A DNA stretch of 64,000 bases from Acidithiobacillus sp. (GCA_028697715.1 JAQVDS010000006.1:1-64000), one strand, 5' to 3'. Shown: positions 8,461 through 54,929, numbered from the stretch's first letter. The notes: generated by a model not told the origin, from the sequence alone. Numbers and translations are program-made.

Positions 8461-9360
8461 TCAATAGGGGTAATCCCAACCGGGAGCCGGATCCTTATAA
8501 CGGCGGTGCACCCACCAGTACTGTTCTGGCGCCCGACGAATAGCTGCCTCGAGGGCCACATTCATGGTCGCCGCATCGGCCACGTCATTACCGCTGGGGA
8601 ACCCATCCGGCAGGGGCACGATCTCGATCTCGAAACCACGCCCAGCTGGCAAGCGATAGGCGAAGAGTCCAAAGGTAGGACTGCCTCGTCGTTGCGCCAA
8701 ACGTGCCAGCAACGGCGTGGTGCAGGCCGGCCGCGCAAAGAAGGGAGCAAAGACGCCCTCGCGCGGGTCCACATTCTGATCGGGTAGGACGCCCACCACC
8801 TCGCCCCTTTGCAGAGCCTGCAGCAATCCGCGAATACCGCCATTCTTGGCCACCAGCCGAGCACCACTGCGTCCGCGGCCGGCGATCATCTGCGCGTTGA
8901 TGGCGGCATTGCGGGTCGGCATGTAGAGCACCGTCACCGGCCAGCGCTGGCCGATATACTGCACTGCGGCCTCCCAGGCCCCCAAGTGCGCGGTGAAGAG
9001 TACTACCCCTTGCCCCTTCTCCAGGGCAGCATCTACCGCTTCCGCACCGCGCACGGAACGAATCAAGTCCAAGCTTCGCGGTAGAGGCCAAAACCAGAGC
9101 GGCCCCAGTTCCACGAAGGCCTGCCCGAGCTGGCGGAAATGCTGGGCGAGCAGATTCCTCCGCTGCCGATCATCCAGTTCGGGATAGGCAATCTCCAGGT
9201 TCCTGCGCGCCACCCGTCGGCCGCTCGCTACGAGAAGACGCGCTAGGTCTCCCAGGCGATTGCCCGCCCACACCCAAACCGGGCGCGGCGCACGCGCCAA
9301 GAGCCGCAAGAGTCCTCCTACCATGGCGGCGAGCCAGGAGTCGAAGCGCCCGGCCGCCAT
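8461..9360 (-). CDS. Lipid A / lysophospholipid acyltransferase (LpxL/HtrB family)
   Basis: The 299-residue inner-membrane acyltransferase has an N-terminal hydrophobic segment and the catalytic H-x4-D/E motif as TAHLGAWE (about residues 122-129). Family members add secondary acyl chains to Kdo2-lipid A. The motifs YMPTRN and GVLPDQN fit family blocks. Length (about 300) is typical. The start codon overlaps the stop of the mscS gene upstream (TGATG), so the two are probably co-translated. Which acyl chain or position it uses cannot be told from the sequence. Confidence 0.85.
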   Translation of the reverse strand: MAAGRFDSWLAAMVGGLLRLLARAPRPVWVWAGNRLGDLARLLVASGRRVARRNLEIAYPELDDRQRRNLLAQHFRQLGQAFVELGPLWFWPLPRSLDLIRSVRGAEAVDAALEKGQGVVLFTAHLGAWEAAVQYIGQRWPVTVLYMPTRNAAINAQMIAGRGRSGARLVAKNGGIRGLLQALQRGEVVGVLPDQNVDPREGVFAPFFARPACTTPLLARLAQRRGSPTFGLFAYRLPAGRGFEIEIVPLPDGFPSGNDVADAATMNVALEAAIRRAPEQYWWVHRRYKDPAPGWDYPY

Positions 9361-38499: not shown

Positions 38500-40008
38500 T
38501 TAGAAGTGATATTTCAGATAAAAACGGTTACTGAAATAGGGATTGTGATACTGCGGATAGTTGGCCTGGTTCTGGGCGACAGAGATGTCGGTATAATCGG
38601 CCACCGTCAGGCCCTGCAGCAAACTCGACAAGTTGTAAGAGAAGCCCACGTCCATGGACCATAGCTTCTGGTTGGGAACCGCCTCGCCAGTGGGGAAGCC
38701 ATACGCGCCGTTGTAAGAATAGGCGCTGCCGCCGTAGCCATAGCGCGCCACGTAGCGGATGAAGCTGGCGTTGACCAGCAGCTTGTGCTGCAAAAAGCCA
38801 AAATTGCTGGCAATGCCATAGGCATATCCGGGGCCAAAATCGGAGATGCCGGTCTGCATGGTAGTGGTGTATTCCGTCCCGCTCAGGTCATTGTAGGGAT
38901 GGATCAGGCCGCCATGGCGGAAGGAGTTGTAATTGATGGGACTGTAATTGCCCACCAGCGCTACCGTGTCATGTTCAGTACCAAATTCCACGCCGAGTCG
39001 GACGCCATAGATGCGCGCGTCGACGGAATTAGCATTGAGAGCATGGAGAAAATTGGTACCGGCGCCGGAATTGCCCTCGGCTATCATCTGGAAACCGGCC
39101 AGAAGCGCCAGATTCTGCTCAATGGGAGCGGAAAAATTCGCCTGTCCGTAAAACATGTTGGCAAAGCCGTAGAAATTATAGTCCCATAGCTGGACGGCGA
39201 TATGATTGCCTAGGAAAGGCGTTTGGTAGCGCAGGCCGACGGTATAGAAGCCATTGGTATGGGCATCGGTGTAGCGGTTGCCCGTGGTGAATGTCGAACT
39301 AAACCGACTGGCGTAACTAAACTCCCGGGCAAACATCACACTGACGGTGGCGGGCGAGCCACTCAAGGTCAATGGCCCATTGCCGGCCCAATTAGCATCC
39401 TGCGGATGTCCAAGCACGTCCCAGACCGCTGCGACGCCGGTAAAGGCGCGCGGGTTGAAGGTGTAATAGTCCATGTTGGCATAGGGGGTGTTGATGAACT
39501 CCCGTCCGCCACGGATCACCACCGATCCGTAATGGTACTGCAGGTAGCCGAGGCGCAGGATGGCGATGCCATGGCTGGGGTAGGGGCCGGTAAGCTCCGG
39601 ATCTTCATGCTGATAAAAGTCGGTCCAGGTGGCAAAATCGCCGCCCACGCCCAAACTCAAGCCAACATAGGACGGGCTATGCAGGTACAGATGGCCACCC
39701 AAAGCCATGGAATGGGTATCCTGCGTGGAATGTGCATGGTTGAGGTAGCTGAAATTGATCAGGCCCAGCATGGCCGATATCTTGGTACCACCGAGATCGC
39801 TTTCCAGGACCTTGTTGCTGGGAATCAGCGAGTGGCTGTCATCGGCTGCGTAGGCGGGCAGGGCAAAGCCGGCCAGCAGCAAGCTGGCGGCCAGCGTCGT
39901 ACTGGCGAGAGCGGCGCGCTGCCGTAGTCTGAGTGTGCATGGTTTTTTGTTTTCATGGTGTACTCCTCCGTCGTTTTGCGCGAGGGGATTCCCCTCCTGT
40001 GCAGCCAT
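38500..40008 (-). CDS. Outer-membrane porin with an apparent frameshift at its start
   Basis: The 502-residue frame encodes a beta-barrel protein with alternating strands and a C-terminal Phe (FYLKYHF). A good signal peptide lies inside it (RAALASTTLAASLLLAGFALPAYA). The best start signal, GGAGGAG six bases before ATG at 39956, is in another frame: it reads MKTKNHAHSDYG and stops after 40 codons or so. One extra A in the run at 39943-39948 would give MKTKKPCTLRLRQRAAL, a normal signal peptide. In-frame ATG 40008, with AAGGAG and a TGATG overlap with rbsC, is the only alternative. So this is either a long coupled start, a phase-variable tract or a sequence error. Confidence 0.7.
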   Translation of the reverse strand: MAAQEGNPLAQNDGGVHHENKKPCTLRLRQRAALASTTLAASLLLAGFALPAYAADDSHSLIPSNKVLESDLGGTKISAMLGLINFSYLNHAHSTQDTHSMALGGHLYLHSPSYVGLSLGVGGDFATWTDFYQHEDPELTGPYPSHGIAILRLGYLQYHYGSVVIRGGREFINTPYANMDYYTFNPRAFTGVAAVWDVLGHPQDANWAGNGPLTLSGSPATVSVMFAREFSYASRFSSTFTTGNRYTDAHTNGFYTVGLRYQTPFLGNHIAVQLWDYNFYGFANMFYGQANFSAPIEQNLALLAGFQMIAEGNSGAGTNFLHALNANSVDARIYGVRLGVEFGTEHDTVALVGNYSPINYNSFRHGGLIHPYNDLSGTEYTTTMQTGISDFGPGYAYGIASNFGFLQHKLLVNASFIRYVARYGYGGSAYSYNGAYGFPTGEAVPNQKLWSMDVGFSYNLSSLLQGLTVADYTDISVAQNQANYPQYHNPYFSNRFYLKYHF

Positions 40009-40964
40009 CAGTTGCTGCTCCTTTTTCTCAGGTGGCCCGTCATGACCGCCAGAAGAATGACGACGCCCTCCACCAGTTGCGTGTAAAAGGGCGAGATATT
40101 GAGAAGCACCAGGCCGTCGAGGATGGTGCTCAAAATCAGGGCGCCAAGTACGGCGCCCCAGACCGAACCGCGGCCACCGAAGAGCGATACGCCGCCAATG
40201 ACCACCGCGGCGATCGCCGGTAACTCTTGCCCGCGTCCGGCGTTGGGATCGGCGGTAGCCAGTTGCGCGGCCAGAATCACCCCGGCGATGCCCGCCGAGA
40301 GCCCAGAGAAGGCATAGGCGAAGCTGCGCAGACGACGCACGCGGATGCCGGCGCGGTAGGCAGCGACACGGTTGCCACCAATGGCGTAGAGGTGCATGCC
40401 GGATGCGGTGAGACCCAGCCATAGCGCCACCACAACCACGATGAACGCGGCAATCCAGATTTGCGTTGGTACCCCGAGTAGATGGCCCTCGCCCAGGGCA
40501 TTGAAGCCGTTGGCGTTGATGTTCATCGGCTCGCCATCGGTGATGATCAGGGTCAGGCTGGAGAAGATCGACAAGCCGGCCAGGGTGGTAATGAAATCTG
40601 TCACCCGCAGGTAGTTGATAATGACCCCCTGCAGGGTGCCGGCAAGCATCGCGGCGAGCAGCGCAAGAAGGGTGGCAATGGGCCAGGGGAATCCGTCCAG
40701 CATCATGGTGGCAGCAATGGCACCGGTAAATCCAGCAATGGCGCCGACCGCCAGGTCGATGCCAGCCACCAGCATGACGACCAGTTCACAGAGGGCCAGG
40801 AGCACCAAGGGTGCGGCATCAATCAGGATGCTGAAGGCGTTGGCCGTAGATACGAAGTGCGGTGCCACGAAGGCGAGAAATACCACCAGGAGCACAAAGG
40901 CGATCAGCACGCCCTGGTCAACGATGGCCTGCAGAATGGGATGATGGCGCAGTTCGTTAGGCAT
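40008..40964 (-). CDS. rbsC: Ribose-type ABC transporter permease
   Basis: The 318-residue protein has 8-10 helices and the conserved CUT2 permease stretches LVMLVAGIDLAVGAIAGFTGAI and ATADPNAGRGQELPAIAAVVIGG. It is the channel of a pentose-type importer. It overlaps the upstream ATPase gene by 8 bp and the porin frame by one base. The sugar could be ribose, xylose or another pentose; adjacent ribokinase favours ribose. Confidence 0.9.
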   Translation of the reverse strand: MPNELRHHPILQAIVDQGVLIAFVLLVVFLAFVAPHFVSTANAFSILIDAAPLVLLALCELVVMLVAGIDLAVGAIAGFTGAIAATMMLDGFPWPIATLLALLAAMLAGTLQGVIINYLRVTDFITTLAGLSIFSSLTLIITDGEPMNINANGFNALGEGHLLGVPTQIWIAAFIVVVVALWLGLTASGMHLYAIGGNRVAAYRAGIRVRRLRSFAYAFSGLSAGIAGVILAAQLATADPNAGRGQELPAIAAVVIGGVSLFGGRGSVWGAVLGALILSTILDGLVLLNISPFYTQLVEGVVILLAVMTGHLRKRSSN

Positions 40965-43754: not shown

Positions 43755-45230
43755 TCAGAAAATTTTTTGATAGATCTCCCGGGCAAAGCTGCTGGCCTGT
43801 GGGGCGCCAGGGAGCAACTGGAAGCGCTGTGCTTCTGGCTCTGCGCTGGCGCGCAAAAATAGAATCTTCTCTCCTTCTTTATCAAAAAGATTTTTGGCAA
43901 AGCTATAGAGATGGGTAACAAAGATTATGCGGACGCCGGCGTCGCGCAGGGCCAAAGTGATCTGCCTCGCAATCTCAGATCCCTCCTGCTCATTGGTGGC
44001 GGCAAAGGATTCGTTGAAAAGTACTAGACTTCTGGCCCGGAGCTCGGGTACGATGTCCTGCATCCGTTGCAGTTCTTCGGCAAATTTTCCGTGCTGCAGC
44101 TTGGCGTCCTCCTCCTGCTGAAAATGACTGAAGATCCCCTGACACAGGCTGGTGTGCATAGTTTTCGCAAAACTGTAGAGCCCACTTTCTGCCCAAAGCT
44201 GAGAGATACCGATGGCGCGCAGCAAGGTCGATTTACCGCCGCGATTGGCACCGGTGATGATAATCAGCGGGGTATGGCGGGCATCAATATCGTTGGTCAC
44301 CGTGCTTTCCCCGCGTAGGGGCAAAAGCGGCGAATAGAGTCCTGTAGCGCCCAGTAGCCCGCCTCCTTCCTGTACTTCCGGCAGACAACAAGACAACCCT
44401 TGTTGGTGAAGTTTCTGCTGTAGCGTGATGGCGGCAAGATAGAAATGCAGCTCGTCGCGGAGCAGGCGAAAAAACTGCAGTACCCGTGCGACTGCATCAT
44501 CGAGAACCTGCGCCGTTTGGGTCAGGAGCTGTTCTCGCAGTTTACCGAGCGCTGTCTGACCCGCCTCATCGCGATCAGCAATGCTGAAGCCCGCGTCCTC
44601 GTGCTGGGCGCGCCAGAGTTTTCCCAACCAGCCCTGGTTGCCAATGCCACCGTGTAAGGCCTCCGGGACACAGCGCCCTGCGGCGTCCGCCCCTGCGGCA
44701 CTGCGCACGCCTTCGTCCAGTTGCAGCGCGGCCAGCGCTTCCTGCGCTGCTTGCAGAAAGCCCTCGTCAATCTCCTGCTGCAAGCGGGAGAAAAGCTTGC
44801 GCAGGGCGTCCGAATGGAAGGTTTCTTCTTTGCTGCCCAGGTCACGCAAGGCCTGCAGTTGGCGCAGCAATTCCTGCATGAGCACGGTATTGGCGCGCAG
44901 TCGGCGGCTGGGAGATTTGCTGAAGAGCAGAAACTGATGACTCTGTCCGGGTAAGTCCAGACTGTTCTGGGCGATGGCGAAGATGGCTTCGGCGCGTTCC
45001 GGCTGCGCGCTCAAGTCGGTCAAGGCCTCTTGGCGGTAGCGTAACGTTGCCGCATCGCGACAGCGCCAGCGGAGAATTACCCGCTCTACGATCTCCCGGC
45101 GTTCGTCATCGTCCTCGGCCATGGCAGTAAACAGGGGCGCAAGTCCCAGATCCTCGACCAGATGCTGTTCCTGCGCGCTGGCAGGAAACGCAGCAAGGCT
45201 TTTTTCCGGATCAAGAAGATGGGGAAGCAT
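43755..45230 (-). CDS. MutS-like ATPase, second of a tandem pair
   Basis: The 491-residue protein matches MutS domains III and V: a helical lever region (about 30-320) followed by the ATPase. Walker A is GANRGGKST (327-335), and Walker B ends LFNES (403-408), so the usual D-E pair is N-E. ATNEQEG and the late THLYSF (439-444) fit the MutS signature and H motif. The mismatch-binding domain I with its F-x-E motif is missing, so classic mismatch recognition is unlikely. ATG 45230 overlaps the first gene by 20 bp. Pairing suggests a heterodimer, which is inferred. Confidence 0.8.
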   Translation of the reverse strand: MLPHLLDPEKSLAAFPASAQEQHLVEDLGLAPLFTAMAEDDDERREIVERVILRWRCRDAATLRYRQEALTDLSAQPERAEAIFAIAQNSLDLPGQSHQFLLFSKSPSRRLRANTVLMQELLRQLQALRDLGSKEETFHSDALRKLFSRLQQEIDEGFLQAAQEALAALQLDEGVRSAAGADAAGRCVPEALHGGIGNQGWLGKLWRAQHEDAGFSIADRDEAGQTALGKLREQLLTQTAQVLDDAVARVLQFFRLLRDELHFYLAAITLQQKLHQQGLSCCLPEVQEGGGLLGATGLYSPLLPLRGESTVTNDIDARHTPLIIITGANRGGKSTLLRAIGISQLWAESGLYSFAKTMHTSLCQGIFSHFQQEEDAKLQHGKFAEELQRMQDIVPELRARSLVLFNESFAATNEQEGSEIARQITLALRDAGVRIIFVTHLYSFAKNLFDKEGEKILFLRASAEPEAQRFQLLPGAPQASSFAREIYQKIF

Positions 45231-46833
45231 GAGCAATCCTCGCCAGGAGTTGAGGGTAGTCCAGACCATATTTTCTGGCCAGAGAGAGGGCATGGGCCAG
45301 ACCATCGGCAGGTTTGCGTAAGAGGCGAAACGTGCGCTTGTCCTCCTCCTTGCTGTCGACCATGCTCAGAATGCTGACGACATCGGCACCGCAGCGACTG
45401 AGCTCATCGAGAAAACTGACCCAGAGTACCAGCGGGTCGAGATGCCGCAGGCGCTTCAGCAATTCCTGGCTGAGAAAGCGGGCATCGTCGAGGGTGGTGG
45501 AGTGAAACAGCTCATTGAGGACGAAGATACTGCGTGGTGTTGCTCGCTCCAGATCATGGCGTAGACGAAGCAGGTCTGCCTCGAGCTTGCTGCGCTCGCT
45601 TTCGGCGTCTTCGCGGCGTTCAAAATGGGTATAAATAGCGTCGCAAACGAAGAGTTGGGCCTGCTGCGCGGGCACTGGCAGACCGATACCAGCGAGGTAA
45701 TGTAGTTGCCCGAAGCAACGGGCATAGGTCGTTTTGCCGCCCTGATTGGGGCCGCTGACCAACAAAATGCGCTCGCTCCCGTGCAGGTCGATATCGTTCA
45801 GCACGGGATTCTCCTGCTGTTCCTGGCGTAGGCGCGCAGCCAGTGCCAGATCGTAAGCCCCATCGGCATGGGTGTGTTTTTCCTCCTCACAGAGCTCGGG
45901 GACGCAGCTTGGCAGGCCCGTCGCCTCCAAGGGGCTGAGAAACTCCAGAAAGGCGAGATAGAACTGTAGTTCCCGCTCCCAATGCAGAAGTGGGACAAAG
46001 ACAAAGGGATAGCGAGCTATTCGCAGGGCGGGGACGGTATCGGTTGCGGCTTGTGGGTTCGGTTGCGCCCAGCGCTGGTAAAAAGCGGCGAGACGGGCAA
46101 ATAATTCGGGAAACAGTTCGGCAATGGCGTCGAGGACTCGTGCCTGTACCGGATCGAGGTCCATCTGTCCGATCTCTTGCTCCTCCCGCGCGTTTTCCTC
46201 GCCTGACGGTGCAGCCAGAAAGCGAGAAAAAGTATGGGCAATTTCTTCGTCTACATTGCGTTGCAAACATTCGCGCCAGAGGCTCACATGACTTCCGGAG
46301 ATTTGCAGGTCGTAGCGCATGGTATCCAACTCTTGGCGCAATTCCCTTGCGGTATTGTGCATCTCCTGCCGCTGTGGTGCCTGTAACTCGTGGATCAAAC
46401 CCTCCAGAACGGTGCATAGGGCGCGCGATCGTGGCTTGGCGGCGGTCAGCGCGTCGGCCAGAGAGGAAAAAATCGTTTGGTAGCTACCAATCGCATCCAG
46501 AAAAACCCGTTGTCGTTGGCGATCATGGTAGAGTTTTTGCGCTCGCCCAAGCTGGCGGCGCAGGGTCTGCATCCGTTGGGTGAAGATGGTCCAGGCGCTG
46601 CGTATCGATGGCTGTAACAGATCGCGCAGAATGGCCTGGCGATGGCGAATAACCATCGATTTTCCGGGAAAGGCGTGATACCAATCAGCCAGCGCAAAAT
46701 CCGGTACCGGCGCGCAGACGGCAGCAAAGATCTCTTGCAAATGGAGATCATCGAAAACTGCCGCTTCCGGTGCTAGGTTCTGCTTCGCTTCTCCCTCGGG
46801 CCAAAGCAGACTTATTGCCGATGTCATTGCCAT
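45211..46833 (-). CDS. MutS-like ATPase, first of a tandem pair
   Basis: The 540-residue protein has helical clamp/lever domains (about 60-330) and a C-terminal MutS ATPase: GPNQGGKT at 361-368, Walker B as IFVLNE at 436-441, and HSTTLDDA after it. As in its partner, the acidic pair is N-E, and no mismatch-recognition domain is present. The start is ATG 46833 (46827 also possible). Its promoter region is shared with divergent glpD. The two proteins differ clearly in length and sequence, so this is not a recent duplication. Confidence 0.8.
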   Translation of the reverse strand: MAMTSAISLLWPEGEAKQNLAPEAAVFDDLHLQEIFAAVCAPVPDFALADWYHAFPGKSMVIRHRQAILRDLLQPSIRSAWTIFTQRMQTLRRQLGRAQKLYHDRQRQRVFLDAIGSYQTIFSSLADALTAAKPRSRALCTVLEGLIHELQAPQRQEMHNTARELRQELDTMRYDLQISGSHVSLWRECLQRNVDEEIAHTFSRFLAAPSGEENAREEQEIGQMDLDPVQARVLDAIAELFPELFARLAAFYQRWAQPNPQAATDTVPALRIARYPFVFVPLLHWERELQFYLAFLEFLSPLEATGLPSCVPELCEEEKHTHADGAYDLALAARLRQEQQENPVLNDIDLHGSERILLVSGPNQGGKTTYARCFGQLHYLAGIGLPVPAQQAQLFVCDAIYTHFERREDAESERSKLEADLLRLRHDLERATPRSIFVLNELFHSTTLDDARFLSQELLKRLRHLDPLVLWVSFLDELSRCGADVVSILSMVDSKEEDKRTFRLLRKPADGLAHALSLARKYGLDYPQLLARIAHASPSS

Positions 46834-46891
46834 ACCACCAAGCGCTCCTGCGAAATTCCTTATCAGTATAGGACAATGAAGGCTAATCGCG

Positions 46892-46919
46892 CTTATCAGA
46901 ATATATAAATAAGTTACAA
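46892..46919 (-). promoter_or_regulatory. Candidate promoter for the MutS-like pair
   Basis: On the minus strand TTGTAA (46919-46914) and GATAAG (46897-46892) are 16 bp apart. The surrounding gap (46834-47007) is AT-rich and serves both divergent operons. CTTATCAG occurs twice, at 46859 and 46892. Confidence 0.4.
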
Positions 46920-47007
46920 ATATATGCGAAGTTTTTTGTTCTATACTACAAACACTCGTCGTAATGATAGGACGCTTCCGTAGAAAAAATGAAAACCAGG
47001 GGTCGAT

Positions 47008-52023: not shown

Positions 52024-52629
52024 ATGAATTATGACACGGAGACCTTGATAGCCTGGCTGCGCTGCATACAGGAACGCTTGGCGCAGGAACGAGCTGAGCT
52101 CGACCACCTCGATGCAGAGATCGGTGATGGTGACCATGGCAGTAATCTTTCTCGGGGGTTCGCCAAGGTAGCAGAAAAATTAGGGGGGAGGGTTTCAGAA
52201 AGTCCCGGAGCGCTACTGAAGGAGGTGGCGATGACGCTGATCAGCACGGTGGGCGGCGCCTCCGGGCCACTCTATGGTACCTTCTTCCTAGAGACCGCCA
52301 AGGCCATGGGAGCGTCCGCTACGTTCAGTGCTGCGGAGCTCGGTCGTTGCCTGAAAAGCGGGGTGGCGGGCATACAGCGCTTGGGCAAGGCGAGCGCCGG
52401 TGATAAGACCATGCTCGATGCCCTGATTCCTGCCGTAGATGTGCTGGCATCCCAGGGGGACGTCGCAGCAGCCGCCCAGTCCGCGCAAGACGGCCTAGCT
52501 GCAACCACTCCTTTGCAGGCGCGTAAGGGTCGCGCCAGTTATCTGGGCGTGCGCTCCGTCGGCCATGCCGACCCGGGTGCCGCCTCCGCCGCCCTGCTTT
52601 TCGCCTGTCTGGCGCAGAGGGATATATGA
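52024..52629 (+). CDS. dhaL: Dihydroxyacetone kinase, nucleotide subunit DhaL
   Basis: The 201-residue subunit carries ADP as a permanent cofactor that is phosphorylated by DhaM. DAEIGDGDHGSNLSRGF at about 29-45 is the Mg-ADP site, and the second half has GDKTMLDAL and GRASYLGVRSVGHADPGAAS. It starts at ATG 52024 with TGAGGAG upstream. It overlaps dhaM by 4 bp. Confidence 0.95.
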   Translation: MNYDTETLIAWLRCIQERLAQERAELDHLDAEIGDGDHGSNLSRGFAKVAEKLGGRVSESPGALLKEVAMTLISTVGGASGPLYGTFFLETAKAMGASATFSAAELGRCLKSGVAGIQRLGKASAGDKTMLDALIPAVDVLASQGDVAAAAQSAQDGLAATTPLQARKGRASYLGVRSVGHADPGAASAALLFACLAQRDI

Positions 52630-54929
52630 GCAAAGTAGTGTCCACCCCGGTCGCATTGTTGCTTGTCTCGCACAGTCGCGCCCTTGCCGAGGCGACGGAG
52701 GCACTGCTTCGGCAGGTCGTCGGAGATTCGGTACGGATTGCCGTTGCCGCTGGTGCCGGGGAGGCAGGAGGCGAGCTCGGTACCGATGCGACGCGCATAG
52801 CTGCCTCGCTGTCCCAATTGGCCCCCCAGTCCGTGCTCGTACTCATGGACCTGGGGAGTGCCGTGCTGAGTGCACAGATGGCCCTGGAGTTTCTCCCGCA
52901 AGAAGATCGGCAGCGCGTCGCGCTTTGCCCAGCCCCCTTTGTGGAAGGGGCGATGGCAGGCGCTTTGGCAGCCCAGGCCGGCCTCAGTCTCCCGGAAGTG
53001 GCACGGGAGGCCCAGAACGCGTTACGCGGTAAGCAGAGCGATTTGCCGGGAGCGGATAGTGGCGCGCTGCGGGAATCAGCGATGCGTGTCCACGCCGGTA
53101 TGGAACGGCGCTGTTACGAGCTGTCCGACCCAGCAGGTTTGCATCTTCGGCCGGCGGCTGAATTGGTACGAGTAGCCGGGGAGGCGGGCATGGATTTCTG
53201 GATCGGGCGTTCTGCGGTTGACTCTCCCTTGGTGGCTGGAAAAAGCCTCAGCGGGCTGCTGGCCCTGGAATTACGGCAGGGCGAGGCCTTTTGTGTCTAC
53301 AGTAACGAGCCCCTTGCTTCTGACCTGCTAACGCGGCTGGATAGCCTCTTTGGGAGCTCCGCGGAGGCGCTCCCGGAAGGGCGACCGCAGGGAGCCGTTC
53401 CCGGTTTCGCCCTGGGCTTGGTCGCCGATGCGCGACTCCGACTGGAGGAGTTGCTCCCCACCGCAGAGGCCGCTATCCCTGACGGAGTAGAGCGTCTCCG
53501 GCGAGCGATCGCCGTTGTTGGTAGTCGTGAGCACGAAGAAGGCATCCTCGACGCGCAGCGTGCCCTGCTTGTGGACCCGCGTCTGCAGGAAAAGGTCGAT
53601 GCTGAGTTCCGGCGGGGGCAGGGGCCGGCGCATGCCTGGGTGACTGCGGTGGAGGGACTCGCCCAAGAAATCGAGCGATTGCATGAGCCGTTGTTACGGG
53701 CGCGAGCAGCCGATTGGCGCGATCTGGGACGCCAGGTACTGGAAGCACTTTTGGGAGACCAGGAAGGACGGACGTTTGCGGAAGCGAGGCCAAGCATTCT
53801 CCTCGTTGATGACTTGTTGCCATCCATGGCCGCTACCATGGATCCTGCGCAAGTACTGGGTGTGATTGATCGCCATGGCGCTCCCAACAGCCACGCCGCG
53901 ATTCTCCTGCGTGGCGCTGGTATTCCCTATGTGATCAATGTGCGTGCTCCTGAGCTTCGCGCGGGCATAGAGGTGGCGATGGATGGCGCTACCGGGGAAG
54001 TCATCGTTGCGCCCCAGAAAGCGCAGGTTGAGGCCATCCGAGCACGCTACGCGACGGCCGAACCCCTGACATTGCCGGATGGATTTGCAGGTGATTTGGC
54101 TCTCGCTGATGGCAGCCATGTCGAGTTCTGGGCCAATGTGGCCAGCCCCGCCGAGGCGCAGGAAGCACGGCGCTTGGGAGCACGCGGGATTGGCTTGTTG
54201 CGCACGGAGTTTCTGTACCTGGACCGTTGGCAAAGTCCCAACGAAGAAGAACAGATGCAGCATGTGCAGAAAATACTCGCGCCCATGGCGGGGCGGCGCA
54301 GCGTCGTGCGTCTCTTGGATGCCGGTGCTGATAAGCCACTGCCCTTCCTCAACCTGCCCAGGGAAGAGAACCCGGCACTGGGACTGCGGGGTATCCGCGC
54401 CCTGCTGGCTTGCCCCGAATTTTTGCAGGTCCATTTACGCGCGATCTTGCGTGCCGGTCACGGGCAGGACATCGCCCTCATGGCCCCTATGGTCAGCCAA
54501 GCGCAGGAGATCATCGAACTGCGTAGGGTACTGGCATCCTGTCATTCTGCCCTTCTCGAACAGCACATCGATCATGCCTGGCCGGTAGCACTGGGGATCA
54601 TGGCTGAAGTGCCCGCGATGTTGTTGGAGTCGGGCAGCTTCCGAGGGCTGGTGGATTTTGTTTCGGTGGGCACCAACGATCTCACGCAGTATGTGTTTGC
54701 CGCGGACCGTGGCGATGAGCGGCTGCAGAATCTGGGCGGGGCCGGCTCGCCAGCGGTGCTAGGTCTGATCCAGGGCTTGCTGCAGGGACTGGACGTGCCG
54801 GTCTCGGTCTGTGGGGAAGCTGCGGGTTCCCCGCAGCTCGCCCTGGCCTTGGTGGGGCATGGCATTCGCCGCCTGTCGATGAGTCCCCGCAGTTTTGCCA
54901 GTGTTTGGCAGGCATTGCGAGTCGCGTAG
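52626..54929 (+). CDS. dhaM: DhaM phosphotransferase with full-length Enzyme I domain
   Basis: The 767-residue protein joins three PTS modules: EIIA-DhaM (about 1-130, His16 in LVSHS), HPr (about 155-245, His173 in GLHLRP) and Enzyme I (about 255-767, His423 in NSHAA). The EI C-terminal PEP site is present (RTEFLYLDR, IMAEVPAML, SVGTNDLTQY, SVCGEAAGS). E. coli DhaM is about 470 residues and has only a truncated EI, so it needs external EI and HPr. This protein should be able to take phosphate from PEP alone. No other PTS gene is seen in the window. Confidence 0.93.
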   Translation: MSKVVSTPVALLLVSHSRALAEATEALLRQVVGDSVRIAVAAGAGEAGGELGTDATRIAASLSQLAPQSVLVLMDLGSAVLSAQMALEFLPQEDRQRVALCPAPFVEGAMAGALAAQAGLSLPEVAREAQNALRGKQSDLPGADSGALRESAMRVHAGMERRCYELSDPAGLHLRPAAELVRVAGEAGMDFWIGRSAVDSPLVAGKSLSGLLALELRQGEAFCVYSNEPLASDLLTRLDSLFGSSAEALPEGRPQGAVPGFALGLVADARLRLEELLPTAEAAIPDGVERLRRAIAVVGSREHEEGILDAQRALLVDPRLQEKVDAEFRRGQGPAHAWVTAVEGLAQEIERLHEPLLRARAADWRDLGRQVLEALLGDQEGRTFAEARPSILLVDDLLPSMAATMDPAQVLGVIDRHGAPNSHAAILLRGAGIPYVINVRAPELRAGIEVAMDGATGEVIVAPQKAQVEAIRARYATAEPLTLPDGFAGDLALADGSHVEFWANVASPAEAQEARRLGARGIGLLRTEFLYLDRWQSPNEEEQMQHVQKILAPMAGRRSVVRLLDAGADKPLPFLNLPREENPALGLRGIRALLACPEFLQVHLRAILRAGHGQDIALMAPMVSQAQEIIELRRVLASCHSALLEQHIDHAWPVALGIMAEVPAMLLESGSFRGLVDFVSVGTNDLTQYVFAADRGDERLQNLGGAGSPAVLGLIQGLLQGLDVPVSVCGEAAGSPQLALALVGHGIRRLSMSPRSFASVWQALRVA

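Follow-up and report, generated by a model that had tools for sequence, protein, structure and literature searches.

Results

A pair of overlapping genes between ribose and glycerol loci

The window, a 64,000-nucleotide stretch of Acidithiobacillus DNA, carries two adjacent and overlapping genes, which we call A (the first gene) and B (the second gene; Table 1). The lengths of the two open reading frames and the size of their overlap were as given in the preliminary description. Downstream of the pair lie a ribokinase gene and a ribose-type ABC transporter, and upstream, in divergent orientation, glpD, glpK, a gene for a MIP channel and dhaK-dhaL-dhaM. Next to the permease of the ribose-type ABC transporter, 38500-40422 (minus strand) encodes a protein with no Pfam or NCBIfam match that is well conserved in the compared Acidithiobacillus genomes (conserved part about 484 residues). 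Downstream of dhaK and dhaL, at 52626-54929 (plus strand), a DhaM domain is fused to a PTS enzyme I-like protein.

Table 1 Features of the A-B locus, in window coordinates
Feature	Position	Strand	Length, content or basis
Gene A (first gene)	45211..46833	-	540 aa, MutS-core ATPase
Gene B (second gene)	43755..45230	-	491 aa, MutS-core ATPase
Overlap of A and B, 20 nt	45211..45230	-	From sequence
A Walker A GPNQGGKTT, residues 361-369	45727..45753	-	Motif alignment
A signature-motif Lys416	45586..45588	-	Invariant in A
A Walker B Asn440-Glu441 (VLNEL)	45511..45516	-	Motif alignment
A Phe474, invariant, at the switch-His position	45412..45414	-	Motif alignment
B Walker A GANRGGKST, residues 327-335	44226..44252	-	Motif alignment
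B signature-motif Lys382	44085..44087	-	Invariant in B
B Walker B Asn406-Glu407 (LFNES)	44010..44015	-	Motif alignment
B switch His440, retained, invariant in B	43911..43913	-	Motif alignment
Intergenic region between A and divergent glpD	46834..47007	.	Fluoride riboswitch absent even at E ≤ 10

The length of A given in Table 1 follows from a start at ATG 46833; the alternative ATG 46827 would give 538 residues. Since a relative (G002) has ATA at the codon matching the former and only ATG 46827 is common to both, A may in truth start at ATG 46827 and be 538 residues long. The dN/dS values of A and B across three species (0.16-0.27) indicated purifying selection on both, which makes it very probable that both are functional genes. 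The window's genome belongs to an Acidithiobacillus close to strain YTS05, with 94% identity in B.

Domain content, ATP-site motifs and fold models

The two proteins had been described as diverged MutS-like ATPases without mismatch recognition, and domain searches bore this out. The Pfam model of MutS domain V (MutS_V) matched B (1.7e-16) and A (5.4e-15), and no model of MutS domains I, II, III or IV matched either protein at E ≤ 10, including that of the mismatch-binding domain I (PF01624), the hallmark of MutS1.

The replacement of D-E by N-E in the Walker B motif was likewise found in both proteins. The Asn is present in every copy of A and B with a readable motif, whereas Walker B reads Asp-Glu in MutS1, MutS2 and KamC, as it does (DE) in the genome's own MutS2 and in its 513-residue paralogue. 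A second change, which the preliminary description does not mention, affects the signature motif, STF or SSF having become GK[LF] or SKL in A and B; where these have Lys, MutS1, MutS2 and most KamC proteins carry Thr or Ser. Because the Walker B Asn and the signature Lys are common to both clades, they would most simply be older than the split between A and B. The switch His is found in MutS1, MutS2, KamC and B and is gone in A only, where Phe474 stands in its place; judged by this motif, the pair is asymmetric.

In P-loop ATPases, Mg2+ is held in part by the Walker B Asp, and the residues of the signature motif extend to the nucleotide of the partner. The changes at these two places suggest that the ATP sites of A-B rely less on Mg2+, a putative property that could be sensible in a cell containing Mg-fluoride complexes. 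We take D693 of E. coli MutS to be its Walker B Asp. The Asp-to-Asn change of A and B corresponds to the laboratory mutant E. coli MutS D693N (PDB 3k0s).

AlphaFold single-chain models of A and B (mean pLDDT 83.8 and 82.5, respectively) matched MutS-family cores from the lever to the ATPase. The model of A aligned with MSH2 (8rz8_A) over 437 residues (Z 30.3, rmsd 5.5) and that of B with 8omo_A over 375 residues (Z 30.4, rmsd 4.1). The top ranks in the fold library were MutS-family chains, a result that is uninformative on function. At the lever tip, the site of the clamp domain in MutS, both models have a beta-hairpin followed by a low-confidence loop, and the net charge near this tip gave no consistent sign of a basic DNA-binding patch.

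A and B lie apart from MutS1, MutS2 and KamC

Whether the proteins fall into an established subfamily was assessed with a tree whose references were MutS1, MutS2 and KamC. A and B formed two separate well-supported clades, split together from the three references by a 100/100 branch, so that neither protein belongs to any of the three. A literature search on other MutS subfamilies (e.g. MutS3-MutS8) yielded no match to A-B.

With MutS1 and the MSH2-MSH6-type heterodimers, A and B share the MutS core fold, and the asymmetric pairing of two homologous subunits that we propose for A-B would have a parallel in MSH2-MSH6. They differ by the missing mismatch-binding domain and by the altered Walker B and signature motifs: in place of the Asp-Glu and STF of MutS1, both subunits have N-E and K. 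MutS1 itself (PF01624) was not found in the assembly of the window's genome (G000), and close relatives have one. The orthologous region breaks off where a contig ends (C56:1) and shows a rearrangement on C20 (compare L085, G007), so the absence may reflect a gap in the assembly and not a loss.

MutS2 resembles A and B in consisting of a lever and an ATPase core without domain I, and the model of A aligned with 7vuk_B over 357 residues (Z 26.7, rmsd 3.6). Yet the scores against the MutS2 equivalog model were 69 and 55 bits versus a cut-off of 400, and A and B have Asn for Asp in Walker B, the signature Lys and a clade of their own. Pfam found no SMR match in either protein, and both stop after the ATPase. 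These observations bear on the idea that A-B, like B. subtilis MutS2, rescues ribosomes, in this case when translation has stalled because fluoride inhibits GTPases. MutS2 is reported to split stalled ribosomes by means of its ATPase and to be recruited to collisions by its SMR and KOW regions (PMC10897456). The model of A did align with a chain of the MutS2-disome complex (7qv3_v; Z 27.0, rmsd 5.2, 421 residues), but A and B possess neither of these recruiting regions and stand apart from MutS2 in the tree, and we consider such a role quite improbable.

The best NCBIfam name for B was KamC, the ATPase of the lysine 5,6-aminomutase reactivase (NF052383), which is of similar length. This identity was rejected: the scores of 74 (B) and 46 bits fell short of the cut-off of 300, and KamC retains DE, a TTH switch and mostly STF, the Bacillota KamC with their classical motifs clustering with MutS2. 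The genome also encodes a single MutS2-like protein of 513-518 residues without an SMR region (G000:C5:87397-87948; L001, L081). This protein, present in most of the family, has classical DE and TH motifs and groups with MutS2.

The pair is rare, patchily distributed and conserved in its organization

We used a profile of B for a pattern scan that covered 84,980 species genomes and also searched plasmids and sampled genomes. The pair turned up in Acidithiobacillus and other Gammaproteobacteria, in Burkholderiaceae, Actinomycetota and Bacillota, and also in Spirochaetota, Campylobacterota, Chloroflexota, Verrucomicrobiota and Eremiobacterota. It is rare, occurring in 2 of 398 genomes in a phylum sample and 2 of 369 in a class sample (the window's own genome included each time), and when 5,426 complete E. 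coli genomes were searched with a Klebsiella copy at near-identity, a single one had it, carried by a plasmid. Wherever both genes were present, A preceded B, and in nearly all loci outside Acidithiobacillus the two overlap by 4 nt.

The preliminary description named lack of conservation of the pair as grounds for refutation, and the survey shows the pair to be conserved. The heterodimer suggested there gains from these data: gene order and overlap hold from phylum to phylum, A and B are distinct clades, and the loss of the switch His from A alone lends indirect support, so that we regard the association of the two proteins in a heterodimer as likely. In Paraburkholderia DHOC27, a B gene (L035:7929-9452) has no A directly upstream, and the contig of an actinobacterial metagenome-assembled genome (MAG; L043) carries two A-B pairs.

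Within Acidithiobacillus, the distribution is patchy and the pair is missing from most relatives. One genome (G003) has only a C-terminal remnant of B (L024, about 8880-8990) and another (G023) a frameshift in B (L021:8845-10349); some Acidithiobacillus can therefore do without the pair. Both genomes have kept crcB, which we counted against a role in fluoride resistance.

Fluoride riboswitches accompany the pair in relatives

Loci were fetched by protein similarity alone, blind to context, and Rfam scans for the fluoride riboswitch (RF01734) were run on the 25 loci outside Acidithiobacillus that hold A (375 kb). The riboswitch was present in 22 of the 25, counting L044, whose best score of 33.0 narrowly misses the cut-off of 34. 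Since L054/L078 and L039/L041 are near-duplicates, there are somewhat fewer independent loci than these counts suggest. Altogether 51 copies were found, where about 0.1 would be expected from the background of about 30 copies in 40 relatives' genomes (roughly 100 Mb). No other Rfam family exceeded its own gathering score in these loci.

In 13 loci, a riboswitch in the same orientation as A ends 9-336 nt upstream of it. Elsewhere, other genes intervene: an enolase gene in L048 (riboswitch, then enolase-A-B) and antiporter and universal stress protein (USP) genes on enterobacterial plasmids (riboswitch, then antiporter-USP-A-B). Every riboswitch found in G381, G540, Tetragenococcus and an Anaerolineales MAG sits in the locus of the pair. 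The annotated neighbours in relatives comprise crcB, enolase (eno), pyrophosphatase (ppa) and phosphoglycerate mutase (gpm), as well as CLC-type channels, DUF190, universal stress proteins and cation antiporters. A plasmid island of Klebsiella and Enterobacter that carries A-B also contains ppaC, uspA, eno, gpmA and crcB, and G540 has this enterobacterial island on its chromosome with 96-97% identity. The Verrucomicrobiota pairs (L031, L034, L036) had no detectable fluoride riboswitch and no known fluoride gene nearby, and searches for other structured RNAs near riboswitch-less loci gave sub-threshold matches only.

Although the Verrucomicrobiota loci speak against it, we regard a role of the family in fluoride stress as highly likely. 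The earlier view that the genomic position gives no clue to function therefore stands for the window's own genome but not for the family. Two functions that it had raised fared poorly. No recurrent recombination partner occurred in the annotated neighbourhoods. As for defence, the recurrent neighbours are fluoride genes. An anti-phage complex would be in keeping with the patchy distribution and carriage on plasmids, but the PADLOC matches were weak and confined to the P-loop (the best, to mad8, at 7.1e-6) and the annotated neighbours are genes of ion and metabolic stress, so that this role appears extremely improbable.

The connection of this riboswitch with mutS has been known since 2010, when 'DNA repair (mutS)' genes were reported to carry the crcB motif in their 5' UTRs and damage to DNA was suggested as the stress (PMC2864571); a later paper cites the identification of the motif's ligand as fluoride (PMC5533749). 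On that suggestion, and given the MutS core fold with its lever arms in the models, A-B might act in DNA repair or against recombination, as a MutS clamp on lesions or branched DNA arising indirectly under fluoride stress. Against this reading, Pfam gave no match to a mismatch-binding or clamp-domain model, the annotated neighbourhoods hold no MutL or nuclease partner, and the other genes of the module are exporters and replacements for fluoride-sensitive enzymes (PMC5533749). We judge it unlikely. The pair is probably part of fluoride survival, and not a repair or anti-virus system.

The Acidithiobacillus pair has no adjoining riboswitch

The search of the surroundings of the window pair for a fluoride riboswitch, carried to E 10, returned only a chance match to a human lncRNA, and no fluoride genes were found near the pair, which counts against a fluoride role; the other Acidithiobacillus copies likewise have no riboswitch next to them. 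For this copy, the link to fluoride is thus one of homology and not of shared regulation. The genome has its own crcB and fluoride riboswitch on another contig; within Acidithiobacillaceae, the presence of riboswitch and crcB does not separate pair-bearing from pair-less genomes. This only fluoride riboswitch of the genome heads an operon of NuoH-like and Mrp-antiporter-like genes (G000:C66:155347-163169; L080), and crcB lies about 7.5 kb downstream of it on the same contig.

In the tree, the Acidithiobacillus copies of A formed a clade with that of G381 (100/99), as did those of B (99/90), and these clades are nested among otherwise mostly riboswitch-bearing copies. In G381, the order is riboswitch-A-B, and behind the pair a second riboswitch leads into an operon of NuoH/antiporter-like type; the riboswitch-headed operon of the window's genome is of the same kind. 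The simplest reading of these relationships is that the Acidithiobacillus pair was inherited or acquired from a fluoride module and then parted from the switch.

The pair may instead have been recruited to a role in ribose or glycerol metabolism, its link to fluoride being gone. The missing riboswitch would fit, and so would the conserved position of most Acidithiobacillus copies, which in two genera lie between the ribokinase/ribose ABC operon and glpD. But the pair of an A. ferrivorans MAG lies in another neighbourhood, the flanking operons remain in G003 where the pair is lost, and the motifs are the same as in fluoride-linked copies; we find this recruitment improbable. For the window copy, we lean towards a continued service against fluoride. 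Fluoride accumulates as a weak acid at low pH (PMC11139923), and the pair would therefore be useful in an acidophile.

Discussion

The riboswitch-associated mutS genes reported in 2010 resemble the relatives' loci described here, in which a MutS-family gene stands directly behind the riboswitch, and the window pair is homologous to these riboswitch-linked copies and nested among them. That paper names 'DNA repair (mutS)' only, whereas we find an A-B pair with altered ATP-site motifs, the window copy of which has no adjoining riboswitch; the genes of 2010 are presumably A-B genes. We found no functional study of crcB-motif mutS genes in the literature searched; searches on fluoride riboswitch and MutS, with most subscription papers outside their scope, returned nothing after 2010, and MutS goes unmentioned in a review from 2024 on fluoride resistance in microbes (PMC11139923). 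As far as these searches show, what is new is the occurrence of the A-B architecture in many phyla, the ATP-site changes common to both subunits, the asymmetry of the pair and the switch-less lineage.

An experimentally tested relative of the plasmid island is the six-gene fluoride operon of Enterobacter cloacae FRM (PMC5533749). Five of its genes are found in the island carrying A-B, and its orf5249 might be, as a guess, the island's P-type ATPase. A-B is not among the six tested genes and sits in a convergent operon that has a riboswitch of its own.

On balance, and with restrained confidence, we take A and B to be partner subunits of a single MutS-core ATPase that serves in the response to fluoride stress, where they would work as an asymmetric heterodimeric clamp. 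Elsewhere, the pair would form an accessory module that is mobile and either under the control of fluoride riboswitches or adjacent to them; from such a module the Acidithiobacillus copy would descend, having become separated from the switch. The clamp would have two composite ATP sites, possibly modified for weakened Mg2+ coordination: both subunits lack the Mg2+-coordinating Walker B Asp and carry the invariant signature Lys, with a switch His in B alone. It may spend ATP on remodelling or releasing a macromolecular target jammed under fluoride stress, a putative client, rather than on mismatch repair. We consider such a putative remodelling activity rather more probable than DNA repair.

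A more specific version, which we hold to be rather unlikely, is that A-B is a fluoride reactivase. Its sites would have been rebuilt (Asp to Asn, Ser/Thr to Lys) for weak Mg2+ coordination and so evade inhibition by Mg-fluoride, and ATP would power the separation of enzymes or nucleoprotein complexes that Mg-fluoride has trapped in transition-state-like states. If true, this would add a repair step for fluoride damage to export and enzyme replacement.

The riboswitch-linked 'mutS' genes thus appear to represent a paired, mismatch-blind subfamily with shared ATP-site changes, and a puzzling annotation as 'DNA mismatch repair protein' turns into a testable idea, that of a fluoride-adapted ATPase. 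Conjugative plasmids of enterobacteria carry the pair as well; there it is often still annotated MutS and can therefore mislead surveys of mismatch repair; in E. coli, RefSeq annotates the riboswitch-associated gene as 'MutS-related protein'.
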